A stretch of 46,869 nt of DNA from a virus: positions 1-46,869 of the IMG/VR virus record IMGVR_UViG_3300020463_002569; one strand, 5' to 3'. The notes beneath the pieces were generated by a model, which saw only the letters and a program-made list of their open reading frames with translations, was not told the DNA's origin and ran no database searches. A program made the translations under genes and the position numbers. Shown piece by piece: positions 9,501-46,869 of this stretch. Positions within the stretch are counted from its first letter, which is position 1. Every line of letters starts with the position of its first letter.

Positions 9501-10353
9501 TATAGCAGATCTTGATGTCGTGTTTTTATCTTACAAAGAGCCTAATAAGGAACACAATTGGCTGGACCTTAAAGCGAAATGCCCATGGGCCAAACGTGTC
9601 GATGGAGTAGAAGGATCTGATGCCGCACACAAAGCTGCAGGAGAATGTGCTAAAACAGAAAGATTTGTTTTAGTAGATGGGGACAACATTGTTGATCCGG
9701 CTATATTTGATCAACAGATCGATCTATCTAAACAAAATGAAAATGTTGTTATACGTTGGCGTAGCCTTAATAATATTAATGGATTGAAATATGGAAATGG
9801 TGGAGTATCATGTTGGACAAAACAATTTGTGCGGAATATGAAGACACATGAAAACACAGATGGCTCAGAAGCATCTCTAGTAGAGTTTTGTTATGAGGAT
9901 GGCTATTTGGCCTATCCACAATGTTATTCTACCACTATAATAAATCATACCGCACAACAGGCGTGGCAAGCTGGCTTTAGGGAAGGAGTCAAAATGTCGT
10001 TAGATCGTGGCAAAAGGAAGACTCCAGGCGAATTTTTACAGTCTGTACATAAACAAAATTTACTGTGTTTGCTGACTTGGATGAGTGTAGGCGCTGATGT
10101 AAAACACGGTTTATGGGCCATGTACGGAGCATGTGAAGGTTGTTATATGACAATGGTTGCAGATTGGGACCATGTTAATGTGCGAGACTTTAAATATTTA
10201 GAACAACATTGGGACGATAAACACATTAAAGAACAAGATCTTGCAAACACAATAGACCAACTGATTGCAGAACTTAATTATACTTTAGGAGTGTCAGCGT
10301 CCAGATTAGGAGCAGAACAGTCGAAGTTTTTTAAGTTTTGTATGAAATGGTAA
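9493..10353 (+). CDS. GT-A-like protein of the phage YKEPN type
   Basis: About 286 residues from the ATG at 9493, chosen because it overlaps the preceding stop by only eight bases and gives the N-terminus MIDIADLDVVFLSYKEPN; an in-frame ATG 60 bases upstream would add residues lying inside the previous gene. The strand VFLSYKEPN followed by a helix and then RFVLVDGDNIVDP (DGDN in the DxD position) looks like a GT-A fold. The same module (TIVLGYKEPNIQENY) recurs in the repeat protein at 20983-22491. Probably a glycosyltransferase; donor and acceptor unknown. It directly precedes the first radical SAM gene with a seven-base overlap. Confidence 0.55.
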   Translation: MIDIADLDVVFLSYKEPNKEHNWLDLKAKCPWAKRVDGVEGSDAAHKAAGECAKTERFVLVDGDNIVDPAIFDQQIDLSKQNENVVIRWRSLNNINGLKYGNGGVSCWTKQFVRNMKTHENTDGSEASLVEFCYEDGYLAYPQCYSTTIINHTAQQAWQAGFREGVKMSLDRGKRKTPGEFLQSVHKQNLLCLLTWMSVGADVKHGLWAMYGACEGCYMTMVADWDHVNVRDFKYLEQHWDDKHIKEQDLANTIDQLIAELNYTLGVSASRLGAEQSKFFKFCMKW

Positions 10354-11711
10354 GCAAATATCAAACAGACGCAAATAAAGCCAGACTAAAATTAGATAAA
10401 GTATCTGATACCATGTGTTTGGCAAAGTGGATGCAAACTTCTTTGCATTTGACCACAGGTATGACCAATTCCTGTTATCATCCTCCTTTGCACAAAATAG
10501 ATTTAGAACAGATAAAAAATAATCCTTCCAAATTACACAACACGGATGAAAAAAAATTGCAACGCGGTCAAATGTTGCATGGAAAAAGACCAGCTGGATG
10601 TTCCTATTGTTGGAAGTTAGAAGATAACAAACAAATGTCAGACAGATTTTATAGGTCAGGTGAACCATGGGCAATGGACAACTATCAAAACATATTACAA
10701 GATCCACATGCTGATGTAGTACCAACTTATGTAGAAGTAGACTTCTCTAGTGCATGTAATTTTAGATGTTCATATTGTTCGCCACAGTTTTCAACTGCAT
10801 GGGCACAAGAGGCAGAAGAGCATGGAGCATATCCCACAAGTGTACCACACAATGATCCTGCACACTTCCAAGGTGAACGTAAAGTGTTGGCACAAAAAGA
10901 TAATCCATATGTGGAAGCATTCTGGAAATGGTGGCCTGCACTGTATCCTAAACTAAAACACTTTAGAATGACAGGTGGTGAGCCAATGATGGACAAAAAT
11001 ACTTTTAAAGTATTTGATTATGTAATCGATAATCCTAAACAAGATCTACATCTCAATGTCACATCAAACTTTTGTCCACCTGCTCCAGCACTTGGAGACA
11101 AATACTTTAACAGTGTTAAAACAATGTGTGATGGTGCAATGATTGAACACTTTATGCAGTTTGTTTCACTCGATGCTTGGGGTGAAAAAGCAGAATACAT
11201 TAGGAACGGCATGGACTTTGGCACTGTGTGGTATAATGTAAATCGTTTTCTCACTGACATACAAGGACACAACTCTATAACATTTATTATAACAATGAAT
11301 AACCTAAGTGTATCAAGTCTTAAAACACTTATGGAAAACATATTAACACTAAGACAAAAATACTCATCTACCTACCAACGTGTATGGTTTGACACTCCTA
11401 TTTTGAGACAGCCCATATGGCAACACATTGGACTTCTTGATGAATCCTTTGCACACTATTTTGAAGACGCTATAGAATACATGAAACAGCATCAACACAG
11501 CACAGATATGGTTGCATTCAGAGATTTCGAAATAGCCAAATTACAAAGAACATACCAAATAATGAAGCAAGGATTAGATGATAAACATACACACATGGCT
11601 AATTTTTGGCGTTTTTTCAGGACACATGACGTAAGAAGAAAAACTGATCTCGTTGCAACATTTCCTGAATATAATCGATGGTTTAGTTTATGTCAGAAAG
11701 CAACACAATGA
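10347..11711 (+). CDS. Radical SAM protein 1 with N-terminal twitch-like Cys module
   Basis: About 454 residues from the ATG at 10347 (a TTG three codons upstream is also possible). The radical SAM motif CNFRCSYC (Cys137, Cys141, Cys144) binds the [4Fe-4S] cluster that cleaves S-adenosylmethionine, and TGGEP follows on the next strand. Unusually, four Cys lie before this core (Cys24, Cys43, Cys85, Cys88; CLAKW, NSCYH, GCSYCWK), forming an auxiliary cluster site like a twitch or half-SPASM domain at the N-terminus. It is closely related to the next gene (shared HKIDLE, LHNT, RPAGC segments). Reaction unknown; twitch/SPASM enzymes modify peptides, sugars or cofactors. Confidence 0.8.
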   Translation: MVSKYQTDANKARLKLDKVSDTMCLAKWMQTSLHLTTGMTNSCYHPPLHKIDLEQIKNNPSKLHNTDEKKLQRGQMLHGKRPAGCSYCWKLEDNKQMSDRFYRSGEPWAMDNYQNILQDPHADVVPTYVEVDFSSACNFRCSYCSPQFSTAWAQEAEEHGAYPTSVPHNDPAHFQGERKVLAQKDNPYVEAFWKWWPALYPKLKHFRMTGGEPMMDKNTFKVFDYVIDNPKQDLHLNVTSNFCPPAPALGDKYFNSVKTMCDGAMIEHFMQFVSLDAWGEKAEYIRNGMDFGTVWYNVNRFLTDIQGHNSITFIITMNNLSVSSLKTLMENILTLRQKYSSTYQRVWFDTPILRQPIWQHIGLLDESFAHYFEDAIEYMKQHQHSTDMVAFRDFEIAKLQRTYQIMKQGLDDKHTHMANFWRFFRTHDVRRKTDLVATFPEYNRWFSLCQKATQ

Positions 11712-13054
11712 GTGAAGATCTAGAATTTAAACAAAAATATTTAGATACAAAATCGGCGTCGTTCTGTGCGGCAAAATGGTACAATGCAACAATATGGCTT
11801 GGTAGCGGCATGACTACTAGTTGTCATCACCCCCTTCCACATAAAATTGATCTAGAAGAAATAAAGAAAAATCCTAGTGCATTACACAACACTAAGGAAA
11901 AAAAAGAACAACGTAGACAAATGCAATGCGGTGAAAGACCCGCAGGATGTGAATACTGTTGGAAAATAGAAGACATTGGCAGAGATTCAATCAGTGATAG
12001 AGTATACAAGTCTAAAATTTATACTGACAACGATCTTGACTTGGCTTATAAGTCTGACTATAAAAAGGATTTTAATTTACGCACATTGGAAATTGCTTTT
12101 GACAGAACGTGCAACTTTGCATGTTCATATTGTAATCCAGCTTTTAGCACCACATGGGCAAGAGATATCAATCAAGGTGGTCCTTACAACGACATGATTA
12201 CAGACGGAAGAAATCATTTTACACATTCCCATGAATCCGCTGAACCATATAAGAAAGATGAGACAAATCCGTATGTGGAAGCATTTTATAAATGGTGGGA
12301 GTCTGATTTGCACAAAAGTTTGGACGAACTGCGAATAACAGGCGGTGAACCAATGATGAGTCCAAATTTATGGAGGTTACTTGATTGGATCGAAACACAA
12401 GGACACAAGATGAATCCTAATATGCGTATTGCAATAAATTCAAATTTAGGTGCCAAACAATCTATAATAGATAGGTTTAAGGAAAAATTAAAAAACTTTT
12501 CAAATTTTCATTTGTATACAAGTAATGAATCTGTATCAAGCCAAGCCGAATACATAAGAGATGGACTAAATTTTACCCAATGGTATGAAAACATGTTGTC
12601 TATGATGAAAGAAAATATTCCTTCCGAAATACACAACATGGCAACAATTAATGCATTGTGTTTGGAAACTTTGCCACAATTTTTAGAACAACTTGTAAGA
12701 TTAAAGACAGCAAGTAAATTATACGGGCCTAGATTAAATTTTACATTGAACATTTTACGTTTTCCAAGTTTTCAATCTCCTTTAGTGCTTCCTGATGATC
12801 TACGTAACCTTTTTAAACAAAATCTAGAAAAGTTTCTAAGTAATAATTCCAAATATTTAGAACATATGGAGATTAACCATACGCAAAGATTAATAGACTA
12901 TCTTGATGTAGTTAAAACTCCACACGCTGGTGCAGCTACACAAGAAAAATTACAAAAAGATTTCAAAATTTTTTATAGTCAATACGACAAAAGAAGAGGA
13001 AAAAACTTTGTGAAAACTTTTCCTATTATCGGGGAGTGGTATGGCCAACTATGA
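11708..13054 (+). CDS. Radical SAM protein 2 with N-terminal twitch-like Cys module
   Basis: About 448 residues from the ATG at 11708, which overlaps the preceding TGA as ATGA; an in-frame ATG at 11690 is an alternative. The radical SAM core motif is CNFACSYC (Cys135, Cys139, Cys142) with TGGEP downstream. The auxiliary Cys are 20, 39, 81 and 84 (FCAAKW, SCHHP, GCEYCWK). The first 90 residues track radical SAM protein 1 closely, so the two are tandem paralogues that may act on related substrates or together. No signal peptide; cytoplasmic. Confidence 0.8.
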   Translation: MSEDLEFKQKYLDTKSASFCAAKWYNATIWLGSGMTTSCHHPLPHKIDLEEIKKNPSALHNTKEKKEQRRQMQCGERPAGCEYCWKIEDIGRDSISDRVYKSKIYTDNDLDLAYKSDYKKDFNLRTLEIAFDRTCNFACSYCNPAFSTTWARDINQGGPYNDMITDGRNHFTHSHESAEPYKKDETNPYVEAFYKWWESDLHKSLDELRITGGEPMMSPNLWRLLDWIETQGHKMNPNMRIAINSNLGAKQSIIDRFKEKLKNFSNFHLYTSNESVSSQAEYIRDGLNFTQWYENMLSMMKENIPSEIHNMATINALCLETLPQFLEQLVRLKTASKLYGPRLNFTLNILRFPSFQSPLVLPDDLRNLFKQNLEKFLSNNSKYLEHMEINHTQRLIDYLDVVKTPHAGAATQEKLQKDFKIFYSQYDKRRGKNFVKTFPIIGEWYGQL

Positions 13055-14321
13055 AGATAAGTTACCAAACAAGATAAAACTAGATCAACTTACCGATCGA
13101 GAAAAAATACATCTTACTGGTAACAAATATTTTTGCATGTTGCCATGGACACATCTACATGCCTATCCTAATGGAGATGCTTATCCATGTTGTCTTGCAT
13201 CGCATAAACATCCAATTGGTAATATGAGGGATGAAACAATAGATCAATTATGGAATAATAATGGTATGAAGACCTTGCGTAAAAATATGCTGACTGGCAA
13301 GGCATCAAAAGAGTGTGTCAAGTGTTATGAACAGGAATCCAATGGTTGGACCTCAATGCGTAAGTCTGCAAACAAACACTTTGGACATCATATTAAAGAG
13401 ATACATCATACAGAAGATGATGGTTACTATGAAAAAGTTAATATGATCTATTGGGACATAAGATTTTCAAACCTTTGTAATTTGTCATGTAGATATTGCG
13501 GCACTTATTTTTCTTCTAATTGGTATGATGATCAAGTTGCTTTATTTGGAAAGCCTAATCATCCAAAAGTAACTTATGCAGGTAGCTCTAAAACAGATGC
13601 ATATGACCAATTAATCAATTATTTGCCAATGGTTGAACAGGTATATTTTGCTGGCGGTGAGCCTTTGATAATGGAAGAACATTATAAAATTTTAAAGGCG
13701 TTAATTGATATAGGTAAAGCTGATAAAGTGAGGCTAATTTATAACACCAATTTTACGAGGCTGGCTTACAAAAAGTTAAATGTGTTGGATCTATGGCCTG
13801 AATTTGAAGACGTCAGTGTTGGTGCGTCATTAGATGCAATGGGTCCAAGGGCAGAACTTATCCGTAATGGCACCATATGGAAGGATGTCGAAAACAACAG
13901 AGAACTAATGATGAAAAAATGTCCTAAAGTGGATTTTTATGTAAGTGCAACTCTGTCAGCTTTTAACGCCAAACATGTTGTTGACTTTCACGATGACTGG
14001 GTTGAAAAAGGATTTATTACCTACAAGGATTGGAATATGAATGTTGTGCAAGATCCAGAACACTACAGAGCTGATATTTTGCCCTTGTCTATGAAAGAAA
14101 AAATTACTGAGGATTATAAAACACACATTAACAAAATTGCTCCATATGATGATCTTGGTAGAGCAACTAATGGGTTTAGAAGTGCAATAAAATTTATTAA
14201 TTCAACTGACAATACTGTTTTGTTGCCAAAGTTTAAAAAGTATATCAAACTTTTGGATGAAAGAAGAAAACAAAACACATTACAAATATTTCCAGAATTA
14301 CAGGGGATATTTGATGTCTAA
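13041..14321 (+). CDS. Radical SAM protein 3 with N-terminal twitch-like Cys module
   Basis: 426 residues. GGGGAG lies just before the ATG, supporting this start, and the gene overlaps the previous one by 14 bases. The N-terminal module has Cys32 (CMLPWTH), Cys50-Cys51 (PCCLA) and Cys92/Cys95 (ECVKCYE), the classical C-PW ... CC ... CxxC pattern of a twitch or half-SPASM auxiliary cluster. The radical SAM core is CNLSCRYC (Cys146, Cys150, Cys153) followed by AGGEPLI. It differs from proteins 1 and 2 in the N-terminal module, forming its own subgroup. Substrate unknown. Confidence 0.8.
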   Translation: MANYEDKLPNKIKLDQLTDREKIHLTGNKYFCMLPWTHLHAYPNGDAYPCCLASHKHPIGNMRDETIDQLWNNNGMKTLRKNMLTGKASKECVKCYEQESNGWTSMRKSANKHFGHHIKEIHHTEDDGYYEKVNMIYWDIRFSNLCNLSCRYCGTYFSSNWYDDQVALFGKPNHPKVTYAGSSKTDAYDQLINYLPMVEQVYFAGGEPLIMEEHYKILKALIDIGKADKVRLIYNTNFTRLAYKKLNVLDLWPEFEDVSVGASLDAMGPRAELIRNGTIWKDVENNRELMMKKCPKVDFYVSATLSAFNAKHVVDFHDDWVEKGFITYKDWNMNVVQDPEHYRADILPLSMKEKITEDYKTHINKIAPYDDLGRATNGFRSAIKFINSTDNTVLLPKFKKYIKLLDERRKQNTLQIFPELQGIFDV

Positions 14322-15504
14322 TAAATGTGTACTGCCTTGGATTCATACAGAACTTTCAACAAATGGCAAGTTTAGACCCTGTTGCCTGTTCAAAGATTTT
14401 ATTAAAAAACCAGATGGTACACACTACAGTGTTCAGAATGGTGATTCTATTGAAGATGTGTTTAAATCAGAATACATGCAAAAAATAAGGCAGGATTTTT
14501 TAGCAGGTAAAAAGATAAGAGAATGTGATGCATGTTGGCAAGTTGAACAAAGTGGTGGTGTTAGTAAACGTATGAACGATAACAAAACTTTTAATGTTTA
14601 CAACAGTATGATAGATCCTAAAATAATCTATATGGGTATAAAATTTGGCAACATTTGTAATTTAAAATGCAGAATTTGTGGATCTCAATCGTCTTCAAAA
14701 TGGGCACAAGAGGAAATGAAAATTTATGGATCTAACAGCGATGCTTACCATATAGCAAAGAATAATCTAAAGGATGGGTCATGGCCTAGAGAATCGACAA
14801 AATTTTGGAGTGATATTATCCAGGTACTCCCTGCAATATCTCTTATGGAATTTACTGGTGGAGAGCCTATGATGATTCAAGAGCAATTTGAACTTTTAAA
14901 AATATCAAAAGACAATGGATGGTCAAAAAAACAAAAAGTTCATTACAATACAAACGGAACTCACTTTCCTGAATATGCTATTGATAATATTTGGCCTTTT
15001 TTTAAACATGTAGACATAGCATTTAGCATTGATGATGTAGGACCTCGGTTTGAATATCAAAGATTTGGTGCTGAATGGAATCTGGTTAATGATAACATCG
15101 AACGTTTTCATAAGGCCAAATCTAAATCAAAAAATATTACTACACAAGTCTGTTTAACTATTAATATGTTCAATATATTCAATGTTGAAAATCTTTTTAA
15201 ATGGATCAACACTAAGACGTTTGACCATGTGTACGTTAATTTTTTACACAGTCCGAAAGAATACTGTGTTAAGTATCTACCATTAAAATATAAAAATATA
15301 ATTACTGAGAAATTGTTAAATTATGCAGGACCAGAACAATATAGAAATCAAATACAAACTTTTTTAAAGTTTATGAATGAAACATTTGATGAAACTGTCT
15401 CGGTGCACAGCAAAAGAACGCAAAAAATACTTGGGAGCGATAAGTTCAGACAAGAAAAGTTTTATAAAATTTTTCCCGAATATAAAGGATTGATCGATGA
15501 ATAA
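14314..15504 (+). CDS. Radical SAM protein 4 with N-terminal twitch-like Cys module
   Basis: 396 residues from the ATG at 14314, preceded by AGGGG and overlapping the upstream stop by eight bases; an upstream in-frame ATG at 14257 would overlap the previous gene by 65 bases and is unlikely. The N-terminal module starts almost at residue 1: Cys5 (CVLPW), Cys23-Cys24 (RPCCL), Cys71/Cys74 (ECDACWQ). The core motif is CNLKCRIC (Cys115, Cys119, Cys122), then TGGEP. It is very similar along its length to the next protein (FGNICNLKCRICGS, FSIDDVGPRFEYQRF), so the pair is a recent tandem duplication. Confidence 0.8.
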   Translation: MSNKCVLPWIHTELSTNGKFRPCCLFKDFIKKPDGTHYSVQNGDSIEDVFKSEYMQKIRQDFLAGKKIRECDACWQVEQSGGVSKRMNDNKTFNVYNSMIDPKIIYMGIKFGNICNLKCRICGSQSSSKWAQEEMKIYGSNSDAYHIAKNNLKDGSWPRESTKFWSDIIQVLPAISLMEFTGGEPMMIQEQFELLKISKDNGWSKKQKVHYNTNGTHFPEYAIDNIWPFFKHVDIAFSIDDVGPRFEYQRFGAEWNLVNDNIERFHKAKSKSKNITTQVCLTINMFNIFNVENLFKWINTKTFDHVYVNFLHSPKEYCVKYLPLKYKNIITEKLLNYAGPEQYRNQIQTFLKFMNETFDETVSVHSKRTQKILGSDKFRQEKFYKIFPEYKGLIDE

Positions 15505-16642
15505 GATTTGTACTTTGCCTTGGATGCACATTGAAACAACACCTCTAGGTCAATTTAGACCATGCTGTTTAGCAGAAGAATCTATTCCTAATTTAAACAT
15601 TATACAAGGGCACACAATAAAAGATGCATTTCATTCCCCTTACATGGAAAATTTAAGGCAAGAGTTTTTATCTGGCAAAAAGCCAGATACATGTGCTAAA
15701 TGTTGGGCTCTTGAATCAGCAGGTGGCACGTCAAAAAGAATGATTTCCAATCAAAAATTTGGAGTAGACACATCAAAAACATCTCTTAAGTTTTTAGATC
15801 TTAAACTTGGAAACATTTGCAACTTAAAATGTAGAATATGTGGATCTTGGTCTAGTTCCAAGTGGGCTCAAGAAGAAATAAGTTTAGACCATAATAAAGC
15901 ACAAGGTTGGCTAAAAGCAGGACAATGGCCGAGAAAAAAACATAATTTATGGAAAGAAATAATTAATCTACTCCCCGATATAAAGTTTTTTGAATTTACT
16001 GGAGGAGAACCATTTTTAATTAAGGAACATTTTGATTTGCTAGAAAAAAGTGTTGAACTTGGAACTAGTAAAAAACAAGAAATACACTACAATACAAACG
16101 GAACCACTTTCCCCAAACACGCTGTGGAAAAAATATGGCCGCACTTTAAAAATGTTGAAATAGCGTTTAGTATAGATGATATAGGTGAAAGGTTCGAATA
16201 CCAAAGATTCCCAGCAAAATGGAACGAGGTAACAAACAACGTAAAAAAATTTAACTCCATAAAGTCTGATTATAAAAATATTACCACACAAATTTGCTGT
16301 ACTATAAACATACAAAATATTTTTAACTTAGAAAACATTGTTGCTTGGATAGAAAAACAACCGTTTGATTACGTATTTTTTAATTATTTACATGAGTCAA
16401 AAGAATGGAACGTGCAGTATCTACCTAAAAAATATAAATTGCACATACAAAATAAATTGTTAGGTAGTAAAATGATTAGCAAACACAAAAAAGAACTTCA
16501 TAAGGCTTTAATTTTTATGATGGATAATGATCTTGGTGATGACCAAATGCATTGGCAAAGAAAACGTAAAATTACACAAAGTGACAAATTTAGAAAGCAG
16601 GCATTTGAGGAAGTTCATCCTGAGTATAGGGGTTTATTATGA
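15497..16642 (+). CDS. Radical SAM protein 5 with N-terminal twitch-like Cys module
   Basis: 381 residues, overlapping the upstream gene by eight bases. N-terminal cluster Cys: 5 (CTLPW), 23-24 (RPCCL), 66 and 69 (TCAKCW). Core CNLKCRIC (Cys108, Cys112, Cys115) and FTGGEPFL downstream. It matches protein 4 segment by segment, including FSIDDIGERFEYQRFPAKWN and a C-terminal YLPKKYK stretch, while the C-terminus diverges. Conservation of both cluster sites in both copies argues that each is functional. Probably acts on a substrate close to that of protein 4. Confidence 0.8.
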   Translation: MNKICTLPWMHIETTPLGQFRPCCLAEESIPNLNIIQGHTIKDAFHSPYMENLRQEFLSGKKPDTCAKCWALESAGGTSKRMISNQKFGVDTSKTSLKFLDLKLGNICNLKCRICGSWSSSKWAQEEISLDHNKAQGWLKAGQWPRKKHNLWKEIINLLPDIKFFEFTGGEPFLIKEHFDLLEKSVELGTSKKQEIHYNTNGTTFPKHAVEKIWPHFKNVEIAFSIDDIGERFEYQRFPAKWNEVTNNVKKFNSIKSDYKNITTQICCTINIQNIFNLENIVAWIEKQPFDYVFFNYLHESKEWNVQYLPKKYKLHIQNKLLGSKMISKHKKELHKALIFMMDNDLGDDQMHWQRKRKITQSDKFRKQAFEEVHPEYRGLL

Positions 16643-17928
16643 AAAAAATAAAACCTGCTGATGGTAATAAAACTTTTTGCATGGCCCCATGGACACACAC
16701 CTATCTTTCCCCACAGACGGAAAGAAGAATGTGTTGTGCTTCTCGGGAACCTGCACAAAGTTTTAAACAGTACATAGACACTGGAAATGACAGTAAAGCC
16801 TACAATCCATTAACTTTGAAAGAACACTGGAACTCACAACATATGCGTTCGGTCAGAAAAAGAATGTTACAAGGAAAAACGTTGCCTGAGTGCGAAGTGT
16901 GTAATGATAAACTTCTTAACACAGATGTATACAAATCATATTGGAATCATTTATTTGAACATCTTATCGACAAAGCTTTTACTGACACCCAAGAGGATGG
17001 AACCACAACCATGCCTGTGATTTCTTATGACTATAGGTTTAACAATCTGTGTAATTTCAAATGCCGGATGTGCGGAAGCATGTTAAGTTCCTCATGGGAA
17101 TCTGAGCAAAGGAAACACAAGGACTGGTCTATATCAAGTTCACCTTGGATGGAACCAAAATTAAGGGAGCAAATCAAATCTTTTCAAGATACACAAGTTG
17201 TTAATGAATTTATGCATGGAGTCGAAAACCAAATCATTAGGGAAATTTATTGGTGCGGAGGTGAACCTTTGATGTGGGACATACATTGGACTGCAATGCA
17301 AAGAATAATTGATTTAGGATTTGCCAAAGAAGTGTATGTGCGATACAACACAAATTTAAGCAGAACAACGTATAAGAAACAAAATGTATTTGACATGTTA
17401 AAACATTTTCAAGATTGGCAGATATGTGCTTCTCTGGATGGCACAGGAAAAATAGGAGAGTATATACGTGATGGACTTGACTATGATTTGTGGCTAAACA
17501 ATTTTAAGGAAGGCAAATCTGCTTCAACCAATCCAAGGCAGATGCGTATAGACTATACGATTACAATGCCGGGACTACTAGAACTTAAAAATATGTTTGA
17601 CCTAAGTAGAGAACTAGACGTGCAAATATTAACAAAAGTAATGTTTACTTTTTCCAATGATGAAATCTTCAGTCCATTATCTTTGCCAAAAAATTTATTA
17701 CACAAAATTATAGATGATGCACTAAATTATATGGCACCAAAAGCAAATTGGAAACAGCAAAGTATGATCGATGTTTTACAGAATCTAAAGACAAGAGAGT
17801 GTTTTGTTCCATCATTAAAAGGTAAAAATAAACAGATAGCCATAGACAAGATAAGGAAAAAATCTATTAATGAAGTATTGGCAAATAACACAGAACTACT
17901 AGAGTGGTGGGAGACAAAGGTTAAATAG
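16639..17928 (+). CDS. Radical SAM protein 6 with N-terminal twitch-like Cys module
   Basis: 429 residues, starting within the preceding stop (ATGA). The N-terminal module has Cys14 (FCMAPWTH), Cys32-Cys33 (RMCCAS) and Cys85/Cys88 (ECEVCND). The core is CNFKCRMC (Cys138, Cys142, Cys145), followed after about 70 residues by YWCGGEPLMW. It is nearest in pattern to protein 3 but clearly distinct. It is the last of six consecutive radical SAM genes and is followed immediately by a methyltransferase gene, as if in one pathway. Confidence 0.8.
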   Translation: MKKIKPADGNKTFCMAPWTHTYLSPQTERRMCCASREPAQSFKQYIDTGNDSKAYNPLTLKEHWNSQHMRSVRKRMLQGKTLPECEVCNDKLLNTDVYKSYWNHLFEHLIDKAFTDTQEDGTTTMPVISYDYRFNNLCNFKCRMCGSMLSSSWESEQRKHKDWSISSSPWMEPKLREQIKSFQDTQVVNEFMHGVENQIIREIYWCGGEPLMWDIHWTAMQRIIDLGFAKEVYVRYNTNLSRTTYKKQNVFDMLKHFQDWQICASLDGTGKIGEYIRDGLDYDLWLNNFKEGKSASTNPRQMRIDYTITMPGLLELKNMFDLSRELDVQILTKVMFTFSNDEIFSPLSLPKNLLHKIIDDALNYMAPKANWKQQSMIDVLQNLKTRECFVPSLKGKNKQIAIDKIRKKSINEVLANNTELLEWWETKVK

Positions 17929-40246: not shown

Positions 40247-41074
40247 TTAGATCTGTTCAATCCGTGTCAAATGGTCTTTTATACTGGTTTTAACTCCAGA
40301 TTTAGTAAGAACAACAAATGAGTAAAAATTATCAATGTTATAAAAATTTGTAGCAAGGCCCACATCATCTGCTAAATTTTCAATGATGTTTTGATTTACA
40401 TATGTTATTTTGTGTTCCACAACCGATCTCCATTCCTCCTCACCATCTCCATCACTAAAGTGTATCAAAGCTTGTCCACCAGGTCGTAACACGTCGCTTA
40501 TCGATTTGATAACATTTTTAATTTGTTCAATGCTGAGATATGGAACAAAGTCAAGTGATATAAGAGTTCCTATTTGATTATGTGGCACATATCTATCTCT
40601 TATGTGTCCAGTGAATTCAAGTGGCTTTGCTCTAAACATGTTAGGATTAGATTCTGCAGTCTTTGACAATGATTTGAGTACATAATTCTTTATTTTTTTA
40701 TCATCAAATATGTTAGTGCATACGTACACTAAATGTGATCTAACAGCATGTTCAACATATTTCAAGTCATTTGCACACAAATAACACCATGGATATCTCC
40801 AATCAGTTTGTTTCACGCACCAATTTTTAACAAAATTTTTTACTGAGTCAGGATGCTTATGTTTAAGTTTTCTTACATATGCACTGGTAAATCCAAACAG
40901 TTGTGATTTGCCTTGGTCTTTGGTTAAAGCTGTAATTTTTGATTCTGTAGACTTAATCAAGCCTCTGGCTACATTTATAGAATCCTGTATTTCATTTTTT
41001 AGCCCTATAAAATCTTCTTCACAAGCATTGGACAAAATTTCTATTGCTTGTTTTATTTGACGTCTTGATACCAT
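40247..41074 (-). CDS. SAM-dependent methyltransferase-like protein next to DNA polymerase
   Basis: 275 residues. The C-terminal half ends in ISDVLRPGGQALIHFSDGDG (about residues 191-210), a typical post-motif of class I methyltransferases, preceded by TLISLDFVPYLS with the acidic residue of motif IV. The glycine-rich motif I is poorly kept. The N-terminal 100 residues are helical and carry WCVKQTDWRYPWCYLCAND with three Cys. It shares a base with the polymerase stop. It may methylate the host, DNA or a metabolite, or be an inactive relative. Confidence 0.55.
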   Translation of the reverse strand: MVSRRQIKQAIEILSNACEEDFIGLKNEIQDSINVARGLIKSTESKITALTKDQGKSQLFGFTSAYVRKLKHKHPDSVKNFVKNWCVKQTDWRYPWCYLCANDLKYVEHAVRSHLVYVCTNIFDDKKIKNYVLKSLSKTAESNPNMFRAKPLEFTGHIRDRYVPHNQIGTLISLDFVPYLSIEQIKNVIKSISDVLRPGGQALIHFSDGDGEEEWRSVVEHKITYVNQNIIENLADDVGLATNFYNIDNFYSFVVLTKSGVKTSIKDHLTRIEQI

Positions 41075-43710
41075 TATGTAAATAATTTATCAAATGTATT
41101 GTCGGCTTCGGAAGCTCCAAGATCCCAGTCTAGCACGCCAATAAGATTGTCAAGTTTTTTGTTGATTAATGTTGACTCCATTTCATCATCTGCAAATGGC
41201 AGCTCTTTGAACCATTCTGGAATACGCAATTCATCTGTCGGATATGCAATTGAAGTATATCCCATAGGATTGTCTTTAAGTTTACACACAATGCATTTTT
41301 GTCCATCAATGATATCCATCGAGTATCTATCATTGTAAACTTTCTTGAGTGTGTTCCAATTAATAGCTGCTCTCACATGTCCAGGCATGTTTACTTTGCC
41401 TTTGCGTTTCTCCCGGGAATGATATTCAGTCAATTTGTTTACACGCCTTGGTGATCCTTTTTCCCATCCAGGCATCTTTTTGAACTCTAATCTAAAGTCT
41501 GCTATAAAATCCATCACTGCTTCTTCATTGGATCCAGTCAGCACTTTGTCCAACACATCTGATAAAAAGTTCTGTATGTATGCCGGCGTATCAGAACGTT
41601 TCAAATCTAGTCCCATAGCCTTTATTTTATCAACTGATTCGCCTTCAAGATCATATATCTTCATTGCATATCTTTTCTTGGTGATGAATAACCCTTTGGA
41701 TCCCACTGCTTCCCTGCCGGCGGCAATCAGTTTGCCATATGATGAAGGACAATTGAAAGATTGATCCATGTATTTTTTAAATGATTTGTTCACTTCTTCA
41801 GCAACAGAATCATACAGTTGCACCACCGACTCTGTTGTCCATGGCACGTTCCCGGCATCGATGTCAGTCTTTAATGGCTTGTATGCACTAAAGTAGACCG
41901 AATCTGTATCACCATAAATTATTGATTGTCCACGATAGTCATAGTCACCACATATTATTTCATTTGTTTTGGCCGCCATATGTTTAGTAATACATCTTCC
42001 TGTAAGTGTTGTAGACTGTCCAATCCTTGTGTCAAAAAACCTACATCCTGGATTAAGGATAGCGCCATACAAACTGTTAAGATTAATTTTTTTAACGAGT
42101 TGTCTTTTGTCCCAAAAAGCAGTCTCCACAGAGTTGCCAGCTTCAATAGCTTTTTTCTTCTTTGCTTGTAGTTCCTGTCTTTCTGCATACCAACGTTCTA
42201 AGAGTCCTGGAATAACTCCTGCAAATGCATGTGTGAATATGGTTCCATTTGCAGACAATATCCAAGGTTGATCATTATTAAAAATTAATTCATAAACTTC
42301 TGCGGCACTAAGAATATTTGACTCTCCTGTTTCCCAATCAATTGTGATGCTTTGTGCCCTGTCTTTTCTCATCACTGCTTGATATTCTAATGATCCAAAT
42401 TCACCTTCCCATGCTCCAGCAAACGATTTTTTTCCCACAGTCATTCTTTCTTCAATTGCTGTTTCTGTAAGTGTCTGACGCAACTGTCCAACAATAGTTT
42501 CAGGAGCCATATTCAAAGCTCTGATTACAGATGGATACAGTGAATTGATATCGATCGATCCAATCCAATCCTGCAGTCCTTTTTTAGGATATGCCACATA
42601 TGCTCCTGCGGCTGGATCCGAGCCTGGCTCACGTCTCACCCTGTCAGGCACAACCATGCCACGCCTGTGTGCTTCATTTATGATGCCTTGTTCTGTCACT
42701 GCCACAGCACCCATTGTTGTTTGTATCAACACTGTGTTTTGATGTGCCAATTCATTTGAAAGTGCTATAAATTTAAGTTTGTCATCTAGTCTGCCTAACA
42801 GTGCAACGTCTTGTCTGTTGTATTCAATAAATTTTACAAAGTCTTGATTGTACAGTTGATCCAATGTGCCTTCATAAGGAGTCTTCTGTTCACCAAGTTC
42901 CATTTTGGATATAAAGTCCAAAGCATATGAATGACGTTCTTCATATGTGTATTTTCTGTACAACTGCATGTAATCTAAATGCACTCTGCCAATAATATCA
43001 TATGTAACTTCTTCATTGCCAAATCTTTCAAATGTCCTTTTGCGTGGCAGTGTGTTCCACAAACACAGTCTTCTTGTGTCATCCTTGCTCATCACCTTGG
43101 ATATTCTATTGACTGTGTATGGAATATCAAAGCCTTCTGAGTTCCAACCGCTGACTGCATCTGCATCTTCGATCAATCCAATAAATTTATCCAACATGTC
43201 TGCTTCAGAATCACACAGCATTGTGTTTTCAAATTCTTGTTCGATGATTTCCGGATTCGGAAAGTTTTTGGGAGGAATAGCCAATGACACCAATTGATCC
43301 AACCATTGTAGATACACTGTGATAGAAATTATTGGCGCCCATGCATCTGCTGGTTTGGCATAGCCTTTTGCTGGATCGAAGTCAACTTCAATGTCAAAGA
43401 ATGCAACTTGTAGTTCTGGAGCATCTTTGTTGAGATAGTTTTCCTCCAAGCATCTAAATATTGGGTTGATATCTGATTCATACAGTCTTTTTCCTGACTG
43501 CATGTGTACTTCACGTTTGAATTCTTTGCCTAATTTGGATGCTATTCTTGATACCGGAGTGCCATATACAGACTTAAATTTTCCTTTTGGGTCATCATAG
43601 TATGCCACATAACGGGCAGGATATTCAAAAAACTTTCTTTGCCCTCCTACACGCTCCACCACAGATATCTTGTCTGTGTCTCTATCGAATAGTGCATCGA
43701 CGTAACTCAT
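41074..43710 (-). CDS. 43: DNA polymerase, family B, T4 gp43 type
   Basis: 878 residues; T4 gp43 has 898. The proofreading exonuclease has FFDIEVDFD (Asp106, Glu108) and SGWNSEGFDIPY; the polymerase has SIDINSLYPSVIRALN (motif A), KKINLNSLYGAILN (motif B) and IIYGDTDSVYF (motif C). All catalytic acids are present, so it should be the replicative polymerase. It follows a DsbA-like gene by a one-base overlap and is followed by a methyltransferase-like gene. If DNA guanines are replaced after replication by DpdA, the polymerase itself needs no special dNTP specificity. Confidence 0.97.
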   Translation of the reverse strand: MSYVDALFDRDTDKISVVERVGGQRKFFEYPARYVAYYDDPKGKFKSVYGTPVSRIASKLGKEFKREVHMQSGKRLYESDINPIFRCLEENYLNKDAPELQVAFFDIEVDFDPAKGYAKPADAWAPIISITVYLQWLDQLVSLAIPPKNFPNPEIIEQEFENTMLCDSEADMLDKFIGLIEDADAVSGWNSEGFDIPYTVNRISKVMSKDDTRRLCLWNTLPRKRTFERFGNEEVTYDIIGRVHLDYMQLYRKYTYEERHSYALDFISKMELGEQKTPYEGTLDQLYNQDFVKFIEYNRQDVALLGRLDDKLKFIALSNELAHQNTVLIQTTMGAVAVTEQGIINEAHRRGMVVPDRVRREPGSDPAAGAYVAYPKKGLQDWIGSIDINSLYPSVIRALNMAPETIVGQLRQTLTETAIEERMTVGKKSFAGAWEGEFGSLEYQAVMRKDRAQSITIDWETGESNILSAAEVYELIFNNDQPWILSANGTIFTHAFAGVIPGLLERWYAERQELQAKKKKAIEAGNSVETAFWDKRQLVKKINLNSLYGAILNPGCRFFDTRIGQSTTLTGRCITKHMAAKTNEIICGDYDYRGQSIIYGDTDSVYFSAYKPLKTDIDAGNVPWTTESVVQLYDSVAEEVNKSFKKYMDQSFNCPSSYGKLIAAGREAVGSKGLFITKKRYAMKIYDLEGESVDKIKAMGLDLKRSDTPAYIQNFLSDVLDKVLTGSNEEAVMDFIADFRLEFKKMPGWEKGSPRRVNKLTEYHSREKRKGKVNMPGHVRAAINWNTLKKVYNDRYSMDIIDGQKCIVCKLKDNPMGYTSIAYPTDELRIPEWFKELPFADDEMESTLINKKLDNLIGVLDWDLGASEADNTFDKLFT

Positions 43711-44007: not shown

Positions 44008-44150
44008 TTAATTTGTTTTGGAAATCTTACAATATAGTCAAAATATCTTTTTGGTGGTTTACTTTTACTAAGTGCTACACCTCTTGATCCAGGTGATTGT
44101 GGAGTTTTAAGTTGATTGTTTATATCAATTCCAAGTTCAATCAGTTTCAT
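43995..44150 (-). CDS. Small hypothetical protein (51 residues)
   Basis: A short gene starting with ATG at 44150 inside the end of the preceding gene (14-base overlap) and ending TAA at 43995, inside the promoter of the polymerase operon. The product begins MKLIELGIDINNQLK, has a Pro/Ser/Gly-rich linker, then a basic, aromatic tail (KPPKRYFDYIVRFPKQINRQ). No family recognised; overlap and reading-frame integrity support it being real, but it is short. Confidence 0.4.
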   Translation of the reverse strand: MKLIELGIDINNQLKTPQSPGSRGVALSKSKPPKRYFDYIVRFPKQINRQK

Positions 44151-44877
44151 TGTCAGCCTCATCTAATGGCAATGGATTTTTTATGCTTACAGGGCCTATG
44201 TCATGTCCGTCGTCATCTTCTGTGTCAACGTTAAACTGCTCCGGTTTGTCTTGTTCCCACTGTGTAAAATAGGAATCATCTGTGATGCTGTCTTCTCTTG
44301 TGTTTTCCACAGTATAAAAGTTTTGATCAATGAGATAACCTGGATTTTTTGTAAGTCTTTCTTCCATGAATGCATCATCATACCATATGGTTCTGTTGTT
44401 GGGATATGCAAAAAATGTTCCTTCGTCCATCCTAAACATGTGAGCACATTTGTGCTCTGGATCTTCGGAAAAGTTTGTGTCTAAAAAACTTGATTTGTCT
44501 TCAAATGAAAAGTCAATTGTAAACATGTATGTGCCTTTTCTTTTGGTGCCATGCCAGTCAACAAGTTCTGCTCTACAATTTGCTAATCTGTTTCTTACTT
44601 GCACGTTTACATACGCTGAGAAACAATCCCAGTACTGATGAATGTTAAGTGGATGTTTTGGTGCATCCTTTTTCCATGCCAGAGAATGTATTGGACGTCT
44701 AGTCCAATTGACTCCATTGGGTAACAAACATTCAAACAACAATGCTCTGCGTTCCAATGATGCCACGCAATGCACATCACAAAATGTAAAGTCGCCGTGT
44801 CCTTTGGTGTGATTATACAGATACTCATTTCTAATGTATGCTGAAAAAGGTGGAATGTTATGATTTAGATATGCCAT
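44137..44877 (-). CDS. Conserved hypothetical phage protein
   Basis: 246 residues. Beta-rich, with several Cys, His and Trp residues in the N-terminal half (FTFCDVHCVASLERRALLFE, then NWTRRPIHSLAWKK) and a strongly acidic C-terminus (FNVDTEDDDGHD, EADNETD). No catalytic motif recognised. It starts directly after the upstream gene, with no gap, so it belongs to the operon from the right end of the window. Structural or replication accessory roles are both possible. Confidence 0.5.
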   Translation of the reverse strand: MAYLNHNIPPFSAYIRNEYLYNHTKGHGDFTFCDVHCVASLERRALLFECLLPNGVNWTRRPIHSLAWKKDAPKHPLNIHQYWDCFSAYVNVQVRNRLANCRAELVDWHGTKRKGTYMFTIDFSFEDKSSFLDTNFSEDPEHKCAHMFRMDEGTFFAYPNNRTIWYDDAFMEERLTKNPGYLIDQNFYTVENTREDSITDDSYFTQWEQDKPEQFNVDTEDDDGHDIGPVSIKNPLPLDEADNETD

Positions 44878-45669
44878 CTACCAGTTCCTACATGACCAAT
44901 ATCTTGCTTTGGTCTTTGGGCCTGGATTGTCACAGTTGTGTCTTGCACGGAACGATCTACGTCTTGCTGGATTGGACTTTCTTATTTTCATTGTTTTTTC
45001 GCCGCGTTTTTTAGCACTAGTGCCACCATGGCCAAAATTAACTTTTTTGATGTTGCCTGTTTTAGGATCTTTGACATATACTTTGAATTTTGATACGTCG
45101 CCCCTAGTTGGTTTGTTTAGTTTTACTTTTCTTCCTCTGTACTCTGCTTCTACTGTAAATCCTACAACTTCATCACCTAAGATTTTAGCTGCCTCTGTGC
45201 AGGACTCTTCATCAATTTCGGAAATTCCCATAATTTGCATAAAATCATAATGCATTGCTTTTGTAATAGGCATCTCATCAAAAAATTGTTCAAAGCCGCC
45301 TGTAGTAAGTTCATCATCACCATATTTGTTTTTTAGTTTGGCATACTCATTAGCCTCAGCACCATCAGATAGTATTCCTGTGTCGATGTAAGATGACAGT
45401 AACCCTGAAGGTAGAGGGTCTCCGTTGCTTCCTTGGAATTGCTGATACTTTTCATACCATGCCTGTAATTTTGTTTGGTTTGCTTGGTTGTGTTCTGCTT
45501 CTAACGTGTTTAATAGTTTTCCACCTATCTCATCAGTGTACACAAGGATGTTGTCACCATGCACTTCGATGATTGGAGTGTCAATTGCAAGTGTATCACC
45601 AAACTCAAAGGTCAACACATCGCCTGCAACTGGATTTTGTATTTGATATTTTACTTCGTCAAAGTTCAT
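44878..45669 (-). CDS. Hypothetical phage protein with basic Cys-containing C-terminal module
   Basis: 263 residues. The N-terminal 170 residues are acidic and mixed alpha/beta. The C-terminal 55 residues are very basic: VNFGHGGTSAKKRGEKTMKI, then SNPARRRSFRARHNCDNPGP and KARYWSCRNW. This end module recurs in marine T4-like phage proteins, often near capsid or prohead genes, as far as I recall. It may bind nucleic acid or a metal through its two Cys and His. It overlaps the acyl carrier protein gene by a base. Role unknown. Confidence 0.55.
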   Translation of the reverse strand: MNFDEVKYQIQNPVAGDVLTFEFGDTLAIDTPIIEVHGDNILVYTDEIGGKLLNTLEAEHNQANQTKLQAWYEKYQQFQGSNGDPLPSGLLSSYIDTGILSDGAEANEYAKLKNKYGDDELTTGGFEQFFDEMPITKAMHYDFMQIMGISEIDEESCTEAAKILGDEVVGFTVEAEYRGRKVKLNKPTRGDVSKFKVYVKDPKTGNIKKVNFGHGGTSAKKRGEKTMKIRKSNPARRRSFRARHNCDNPGPKTKARYWSCRNW

Positions 45670-45890
45670 TATTTGCTCTCAATGATATTTATTATGTCTT
45701 GGATTGTGACTATTTTTTCGACTTTGCTATCATCTATTTCAATGCCAAGTTTTTTTTCCAATTCCATTACAATTTCCACAGCAGTTAGACTGTCTGCGCC
45801 AAGATCATCAATCAATTTGGCTTCTGGTTTTATTTTATCAACATCGTCAGTCAAAACTTCTTGTATGACTTTGTAAACTATTTCACTCAT
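45669..45890 (-). CDS. acpP: Acyl carrier protein
   Basis: 73 residues, acidic. LIDDLGADSLTAVEIVMELE holds the DSL motif whose Ser34 receives 4'-phosphopantetheine, and the four-helix layout is complete (KVIQEVL, the DSL helix, VEKIVTIQDIINII). The protein carries acyl chains in fatty acid, lipid or polyketide synthesis. Phage copies are unusual; possible uses are altered host lipid synthesis, binding of host ACP-dependent enzymes, or acylation of a phage protein or glycan. It lies between two genes with basic Cys modules and overlaps the upstream one by four bases. Confidence 0.9.
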   Translation of the reverse strand: MSEIVYKVIQEVLTDDVDKIKPEAKLIDDLGADSLTAVEIVMELEKKLGIEIDDSKVEKIVTIQDIINIIESK

Positions 45891-46624
45891 TTTTTCTTCT
45901 TTCTTGGTTTGTTGGACACATTAATTGCTTTGCCTTTGCGTTCAGGATTTTTGTCTTTTCTACGTTTTCTTCTTACAGCTGCCGCAATGGCTGCCTTGCC
46001 ACCTTTGCGTCTTAATGATGCCGCTCTGGCCTTTGACAAACATTTGGGTTTGCCTTCGCTAGCTTTTCTATCGCCACACTTGCCAATTCTTTCGCCTTTG
46101 GTGTTGTAGCGATCCCAACCACCTCCGCCTGCGCCACCTTTTTTGCCTTTGCCAAACCATGCCCTCAGTCCTGCATGATTTGATTCATCAAGTAATCCTA
46201 AATCATCTAGTTCATCTGCTATCCACACATATGGATCACCATCCCTGGCTTTTTGTGTGCCATATGGCATTTCACCAGTACCACTGAAATAATCAAACAG
46301 TTCACCGTATAATTCTTCAAAATCCATGATGTCAGCACCTTGTTTTAGTTGAGTGTGTGCATCAGGATATTTTGCCAAAATACTTTGTGGTGACTCCTCT
46401 GAGTCTAGCAAATGATAATTTTCTTTGAAATAGGCAACTGCTTCTTGTTCGTCGTCAAACAGTTTTACAGGTTCATTGAATTTGTCTACAACAAGATATC
46501 TGTCTTCACGTTTGACACAGTTGGGCACTCGTTTGCCAAACATTGTTTTGAACCCTTTTCTTTCGTAACCTTTCCAACAACGTGTGCCTTCGTCAAGTTC
46601 AAATATAAATTCTGTTAGGTTCAT
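45887..46624 (-). CDS. Hypothetical phage protein with Cys/basic modules at both ends
   Basis: 245 residues. Near the N-terminus TRCWKGYERKGFKTMFGKRV followed by PNCVK (about residues 14-38) is one small Cys module; a middle acidic domain follows; then WFGKGKKGGAGGGGWDRYNT and KCGDRKASEGKPKCLSKARA form a second, and the last 45 residues are almost all Lys, Arg and Ala. Such modules recur in marine T4-like phages, as far as I recall. The tail strongly suggests DNA or RNA binding, for example packaging or condensation in the head. No enzymatic motif found. Confidence 0.6.
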   Translation of the reverse strand: MNLTEFIFELDEGTRCWKGYERKGFKTMFGKRVPNCVKREDRYLVVDKFNEPVKLFDDEQEAVAYFKENYHLLDSEESPQSILAKYPDAHTQLKQGADIMDFEELYGELFDYFSGTGEMPYGTQKARDGDPYVWIADELDDLGLLDESNHAGLRAWFGKGKKGGAGGGGWDRYNTKGERIGKCGDRKASEGKPKCLSKARAASLRRKGGKAAIAAAVRRKRRKDKNPERKGKAINVSNKPRKKKK

Positions 46625-46869
46625 TTTTTGCTCTTGTTGCCCCAGTTCTTTGCGCCAACTTTACGGCAACGAACAAGTGCACCAGAGGCGTAGGCTGATG
46701 GCCAAACTTTGTATCTTGATTTTACTTTGTGGTAACATGCATCTTTTTTCTCTGCAAGTTGTTCAAACTGTTCTTCTGTGATGGCATCTTCTTTGACGCC
46801 TTTGACTGCATCATACATATCGGATAGTTCATCTTCAAGTGCTGTGTCTATGGGTCTTCCGCGTGTGAC
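46621..46869 (-). CDS. Partial hypothetical phage protein with Cys/basic module
   Basis: The reading frame stays open to the right edge of the window, so the N-terminus is missing; about 82 residues are visible. The C-terminal part (DACYHKVKSRYKVWPSAYAS, then GALVRCRKVGAKNWGNKSKK) is a basic module with Cys, Tyr and Trp similar in style to those of the next two structural-looking genes. The visible upstream part is acidic and helical. It overlaps the next gene by four bases. Function unknown; nucleic-acid binding is plausible. Confidence 0.6.
   Translation of the reverse strand, partial: VTRGRPIDTALEDELSDMYDAVKGVKEDAITEEQFEQLAEKKDACYHKVKSRYKVWPSAYASGALVRCRKVGAKNWGNKSKK

Follow-up and report, generated by a model that had tools for sequence, protein, structure and literature searches.

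What a phage might gain from an acyl carrier protein (ACP) gene with no acyl enzyme beside it is the question raised by the locus described here, which lies in a 46,869-base linear IMG/VR record (the whole of this stretch is referred to below as the window). A first-pass annotation had proposed a complete ACP gene with a DSL attachment site, and its coordinates proved to be exact: the open reading frame is complete and begins with ATG (Table 1). The predicted protein scored 50.6 bits against PF00550 (PP-binding; E = 2.3e-13), well above the curated cut-off of 20.8, and matched the profile of PHROG 5934, 'acyl carrier protein' (E = 2.9e-15), as well as ACPs in the PDB (E = 2.5e-15). Its AlphaFold model (mean pLDDT 82) has the four-helix ACP fold, and Foldseek paired the model with the ACPs of H. 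pylori, B. subtilis, S. aureus and E. coli at a TM score of about 0.85. The predicted attachment residue, Ser34, lies within the motif DLGADSL. The agreement of the profiles, the fold model and Ser34 confirms, as far as sequence comparison and structure prediction reach, that the window gene is a real phage gene for a type II ACP with an intact attachment site.

Table 1. Features of the window that bear on the ACP gene
Feature	Coordinates	Strand	Remarks
Acyl carrier protein, 73 aa	45669..45890	(-)	PF00550, PHROG 5934, AlphaFold/Foldseek ACP fold
Ser34 codon, predicted phosphopantetheine attachment site (D33-S34-L35)	45789..45791	(-)	Invariant in window clade
Thr36 codon, position of E. coli AcpP Asp38	45783..45785	(-)	Thr or Ser throughout window clade
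Upstream gene, 245 aa, Cys/Lys/Arg-rich C-terminus, PHROG 727	45887..46624	(-)	Stop overlaps ACP start (ATGA)
Downstream gene, 263 aa, conserved basic C-terminal half, PHROG 7595	44878..45669	(-)	Start overlaps ACP stop (TAATG)
Next upstream gene, cut by window end, conserved cationic family, PHROG 727	46621..46869	(-)	
Further downstream gene of syntenic block, PHROG 3704	44137..44877	(-)	
Family B DNA polymerase	41074..43710	(-)	Used for phage placement and timing of ACP gain
Six consecutive radical-SAM/SPASM genes	10338..17928	(+)	Fe-S demand of phage; context, not adjacent to ACP

Among isolates, the DNA polymerase of the window is closest to those of Sinorhizobium phage Phosso (48% identity) and Agrobacterium phage Atu_ph07 (45%), and it is 85–97% identical to those of a set of uncultivated viral contigs. 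A distant relative of the jumbo phages Phosso and Atu_ph07, the phage is a member of the T4 superfamily and of an uncultivated lineage of marine jumbo phages. The G+C content is 33–38%, and no tRNA gene was found. SAR11 was considered as host, but no result supported it, the closest polymerase isolates being Phosso and Atu_ph07.

The description of the ACP gene as lying between two phage-specific genes was borne out, in that both neighbours belong to PHROG families with no assigned function. The ACP gene is translationally coupled to both; the short overlap downstream is kept in the relatives, and that upstream in most of them. Gene order in the relatives runs from the family of the next upstream gene through that of the upstream gene, the ACP and the family of the downstream gene to the DNA polymerase, where the contig reaches that far, although no member of the upstream family was detected in a few ACP-bearing relatives. 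Because this conserved phage synteny surrounds the ACP gene in at least 12 contigs, host contamination at the locus was ruled out. A comparison of loci with and without the ACP revealed no neighbouring gene that co-varies with it. PHROG 3704, to which the gene further downstream belongs, is named as a ferredoxin family; Pfam detects no ferredoxin domain there and the name may be wrong.

The proteins encoded around the ACP, the upstream gene product and its relatives among them, are cationic, and by eye several of their N-termini resemble T4-type capsid targeting peptides. The ACP could accordingly be made together with head-internal proteins and delivered at infection, and mass spectrometry did find an ACP among the proteins of Eneladusvirus jumbo phages (PMC7760394). 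However, the window ACP itself has no N-terminus of the capsid-targeting kind, and we regard a virion-borne ACP as very unlikely.

Two scans detected relatives of the ACP, 59–93% identical, at the same genomic place in at least 12 distinct viral contigs. The attachment Ser is invariant in the 13 sequences of this group (the window clade), and an 11-sequence alignment showed no variation in residues 33–35 (DSL) or at the positions of AcpP E41, M44, E47, I54, D56 and I62. The latter are known contact positions for fatty acid synthesis (FAS) enzymes. Pairwise NG86 dN/dS values, where computable, were about 0.03–0.26 and third-position differences dominate; judged from these sequences, the ACP of the window clade is under purifying selection. 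Of the two observations that had been named beforehand as speaking against a functional phage ACP, loss of the Ser among homologues was not seen, while absence from close relatives was partial: most carry the gene and five do not. In two of these five (L032 and L038) the flanking genes are nearly joined. On the polymerase tree, some support values of which are low, the ACP is absent from the basal contigs L034, L035 and L040 and present in the crown group, except in L032 and L038, which are nested inside that group. Such a distribution is consistent with a single gain, one or two later losses and long retention; in the broader clade at 65% polymerase identity, no ACP was found near the polymerase. 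The ancestor of this marine jumbo-phage lineage may thus have gained the ACP once, and selection would then have kept it.

The window clade is a single group in the ACP tree (support 100); its branch is long, and Lachnospiraceae ACPs adjoin it (support 71). The best cellular matches were alphaproteobacterial ACPs of up to 54% identity and Firmicutes ACPs of 52%. The ACP therefore looks like an old acquisition for which, by sequence, several bacterial groups are similarly close as candidate donors. A recent transfer from a host was not supported, as no cellular match exceeded 54% in the samples searched. The nearest cellular ACPs, those of Butyrivibrio/Lachnospiraceae and Tissierellia/Erysipelotrichaceae, are about 50% identical to the window ACP, and several have Ser or Ala after the DSL; compared with these FAS ACPs the window clade sits on a long branch, and the alphaproteobacterial proteins are equally near. 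By eye, the genes for the nearest cellular ACPs adjoin fabH-like and acetyl-CoA carboxylase genes, so that a residue other than Asp after the DSL fits an ACP of fatty acid synthesis.

None of 36 window proteins scanned against Pfam contained an acyltransferase, ketosynthase, thioesterase or adenylation domain, in agreement with the earlier statement that no acyltransferase lies next to the ACP. Likewise, PF01648 (ACP synthase), PF00109 (ketosynthase) and PF00501 (AMP-binding) had no match in the window or in G001, G002 and G011–G013, the search with PF00109 being negative in G000 as well, and the window contains no linked fab gene. This sets the window ACP apart from the fabG-acpP-fabF module of Rhodobacteraceae prophages, in which the fab genes are linked. 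The contigs of the window and its close relatives are all fragments, so the absence of enzymes is provisional and a phage partner may lie elsewhere. The suggestion that the ACP must use host or unlinked enzymes is nevertheless sensible: with no ketosynthase, ACP synthase or acyl-AMP ligase found, it should need AcpS and partner proteins from the host. By contrast, the SGNH-like proteins proposed as its partners have no Pfam match, and similar genes occur, by eye, in relatives that lack the ACP (L040, 2801–3391; G002, 1–311). They are not supported as partners, being present with and without the ACP alike.

Taken with the intact DLGADSL, the predicted ACP fold, the invariant FAS-contact positions, the low dN/dS and the single gain with long retention, the missing ACP synthase, ketosynthase and acyl-AMP ligase lead us to favour, tentatively, a stand-alone type II ACP that is activated by the host and feeds host acyl metabolism. 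Host AcpS would add phosphopantetheine to Ser34, and the holo-ACP would join the host ACP pool, where fatty acid and other acyl enzymes would meet its usual helix II surface. The gene would then act as an auxiliary metabolic gene by which acyl flux is kept up or redirected during infection; a putative redirection of host fatty acid synthesis, as the first-pass annotation had it, is possible. Against this stand the lack of any acyl enzyme linked to the window ACP and the fact that the benefit of an extra ACP to the phage is left unexplained. In addition, position 36 sets the window clade apart from most ACPs and might point to a change of partners: 78 of 80 other ACPs on phage contigs have Asp at the matching position, whereas the window clade has Thr or Ser. 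The lack of a linked enzyme, together with the role of ACP as a known hub protein in E. coli, would also suit a decoy or regulator that competes with host ACP for AcpS, SpoT or MukB and so alters host control. Nothing specific points to such a role, however, and strong purifying selection acts on both the Ser and the contact surface, as would be expected of a functional carrier; we consider it the least likely of the readings.

The main rival to a role in host acyl metabolism, which we favour over it, is a role in iron-sulfur (Fe-S) assembly. The ACP of E. coli is a binding partner of IscS, whose activity rises about 3-fold with acyl-ACP (PMC13343975). By analogy, the phage ACP might support host or phage Fe-S assembly and thereby help to load the many radical-SAM enzymes of the phage, six of which are encoded in the window; we hold this to be unlikely but far from negligible. 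Three other phage contigs place an ACP gene directly in an Isc operon, with the order IscU-IscA-ACP in L024 (4356–5282) and L269 (2983–3911) and ACP-IscU-IscA-IscA2 in L349 (2995–5284), and IscU lies within about 1.5 kb of the ACP in L375 and L390. The IscU gene of L349 is split by an in-frame insertion, which could be an intein. Closer to the window, the ACP-bearing relative G011 has a cassette of superoxide dismutase, Nfu, SufT-like and IscA genes (L129, 10273–13033); this order is a conserved phage cassette, seen also in L162–L168. In G011, however, the cassette is 47 kb away from the ACP gene, and IscU was not detected in those contigs that are available for the ACP clade and for the phages with the Nfu cassette. 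The window itself has no match to PF01521 or PF01592, and its ACP, unlike those of L024, L269 and L349, has no adjacent iscU or iscA; moreover, in the similar phage L344 the ACP occupies the L024 position but IscU and IscA are absent. In the 3-kb flanks of 80 ACP loci on phage contigs, IscU was found in 4, NrdA in 6, NrdB in 4 and FabG in 5, while among 80 IscU loci 68 had IscA and only one had an ACP. Taken as raw counts, these figures indicate that the link between ACP and Isc genes is recurrent but rare. A common origin of the window ACP and the Isc-operon ACP of L024 was not supported either, since the tree places L024 elsewhere, with low support.

The residue after the DSL bears more directly on this rival. 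Binding of E. coli ACP to IscS needs D35, S36 and D38, the D38N exchange abolishing it, and SufS is not bound (PMC13343975). The window ACP has the equivalents of D35 and S36 (D33 and S34), but at the D38 position every member of the window clade has Thr or Ser; lacking that Asp and an adjacent isc gene, it does not match the IscS-binding ACP of E. coli. The ACPs of L024 and L269 do carry Asp there, so that the Fe-S reading is lowered for the window and not for those phages. It is a weaker proposition still that some phages use their own ACP as a part or activator of Fe-S assembly and that the window lineage has a variant feeding radical-SAM enzymes by a SUF/Nfu-type route. Nonetheless, Isc and Nfu neighbours in phages offer a concrete alternative to a fatty acid role for phage ACPs, and the natural Asp and Thr/Ser variants allow the two roles to be told apart experimentally. 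Should the Fe-S role prove true, the connection of ACP with iron-sulfur assembly, shown only recently, would extend to viruses.

The ACP might instead be a dedicated carrier for a modification encoded by the phage, of a surface glycan, a lipid or a small molecule, made with its radical-SAM, carbamoyltransferase, glycosyltransferase-like and aminotransferase genes. The window does contain a carbamoyltransferase, two NAD-dependent epimerases, a DegT-type gene, a methyltransferase and the six radical-SAM genes, and in G010 (64% polymerase identity) desaturase, radical-SAM and Rieske genes adjoin an ACP gene, a ketosynthase and an ACP synthase being encoded elsewhere. However, the G010 ACP is a different and very divergent protein, some 28 kb separate the window ACP from the radical-SAM block, to whose operon it does not belong, and searches of the window clade turned up no adenylation domain, ketosynthase or ACP synthase; a carrier of this type is improbable. 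The radical-SAM/SPASM block is followed by the methyltransferase and carbamoyltransferase genes. G010 (IMGVR_UViG_3300043438_000976; L175, L313, L315) is a 164-kb contig that also carries a hydroxylase gene beside its fatty-acid desaturases; together with the ACP, radical-SAM, Rieske, ketosynthase and ACP synthase genes, this content resembles a lipid or natural-product cluster.

ACPs had been called uncommon in phages, which holds for the phage records searched, 26 of 50,697 matching at 1e-5, but less well for IMG/VR, where 392 stretches carry relatives; these are relatives of another phage ACP, and some share of them may be host or prophage DNA. Two Acinetobacter 'phage' records among the 26, with fabD-fabG-acpP, look like host contigs; in L174 (CAKLQH020000007.1), an 'Acinetobacter phage' record, the order rpmF-fabD-fabG-acpP resembles host chromosome. 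Phage ACPs have already been reported from Rhodobacteraceae prophages and from Erythrobacter, Alteromonas and Eneladusvirus phages (the last in PMC7760394), so far as fatty acid auxiliary metabolic genes and with little functional evidence. Like the window ACP, those of Erythrobacter phage R6L, Alteromonas phage R22Y, Brevundimonas phage Bajun, Olleya phage Harreka_1 and Eneladusvirus are stand-alone type II ACPs, with no linked fatty acid enzymes in the cases inspected. The window clade differs from them in being a separate lineage (support 100), in having Thr/Ser for Asp after the DSL and in sitting in a conserved operon upstream of the DNA polymerase. The ACP of the window lineage is thus a conserved, ordinary-looking representative of the phage ACPs already known. 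Marine T4-like viral genomes rich in Fe-S genes have been described (Nishimura et al. 2017, PMC5332604), with an ATC (IscA-type) gene, a PaaD-like gene and many radical-SAM genes in one phage; the words 'acyl carrier' are absent from the paper. No report joining a phage ACP with Fe-S genes was found in the open-access literature searched. Stand-alone phage ACPs are therefore already published, and the Isc-operon context of phage ACPs is new to that literature.

Two further observations concern phage ACPs outside the window clade. The annotated ACP of Serratia phage phiMAM1 (L170, 3884–4156) has Glu at the position of the attachment Ser (FDELD) and is probably not a working carrier. In L390, L369 and L375 the ACP lies, by eye, near spanin-like gene pairs, L369 having ribonucleotide reductase genes as well, and the same neighbour of the ACP has been noted in a paper for Eneladusvirus.
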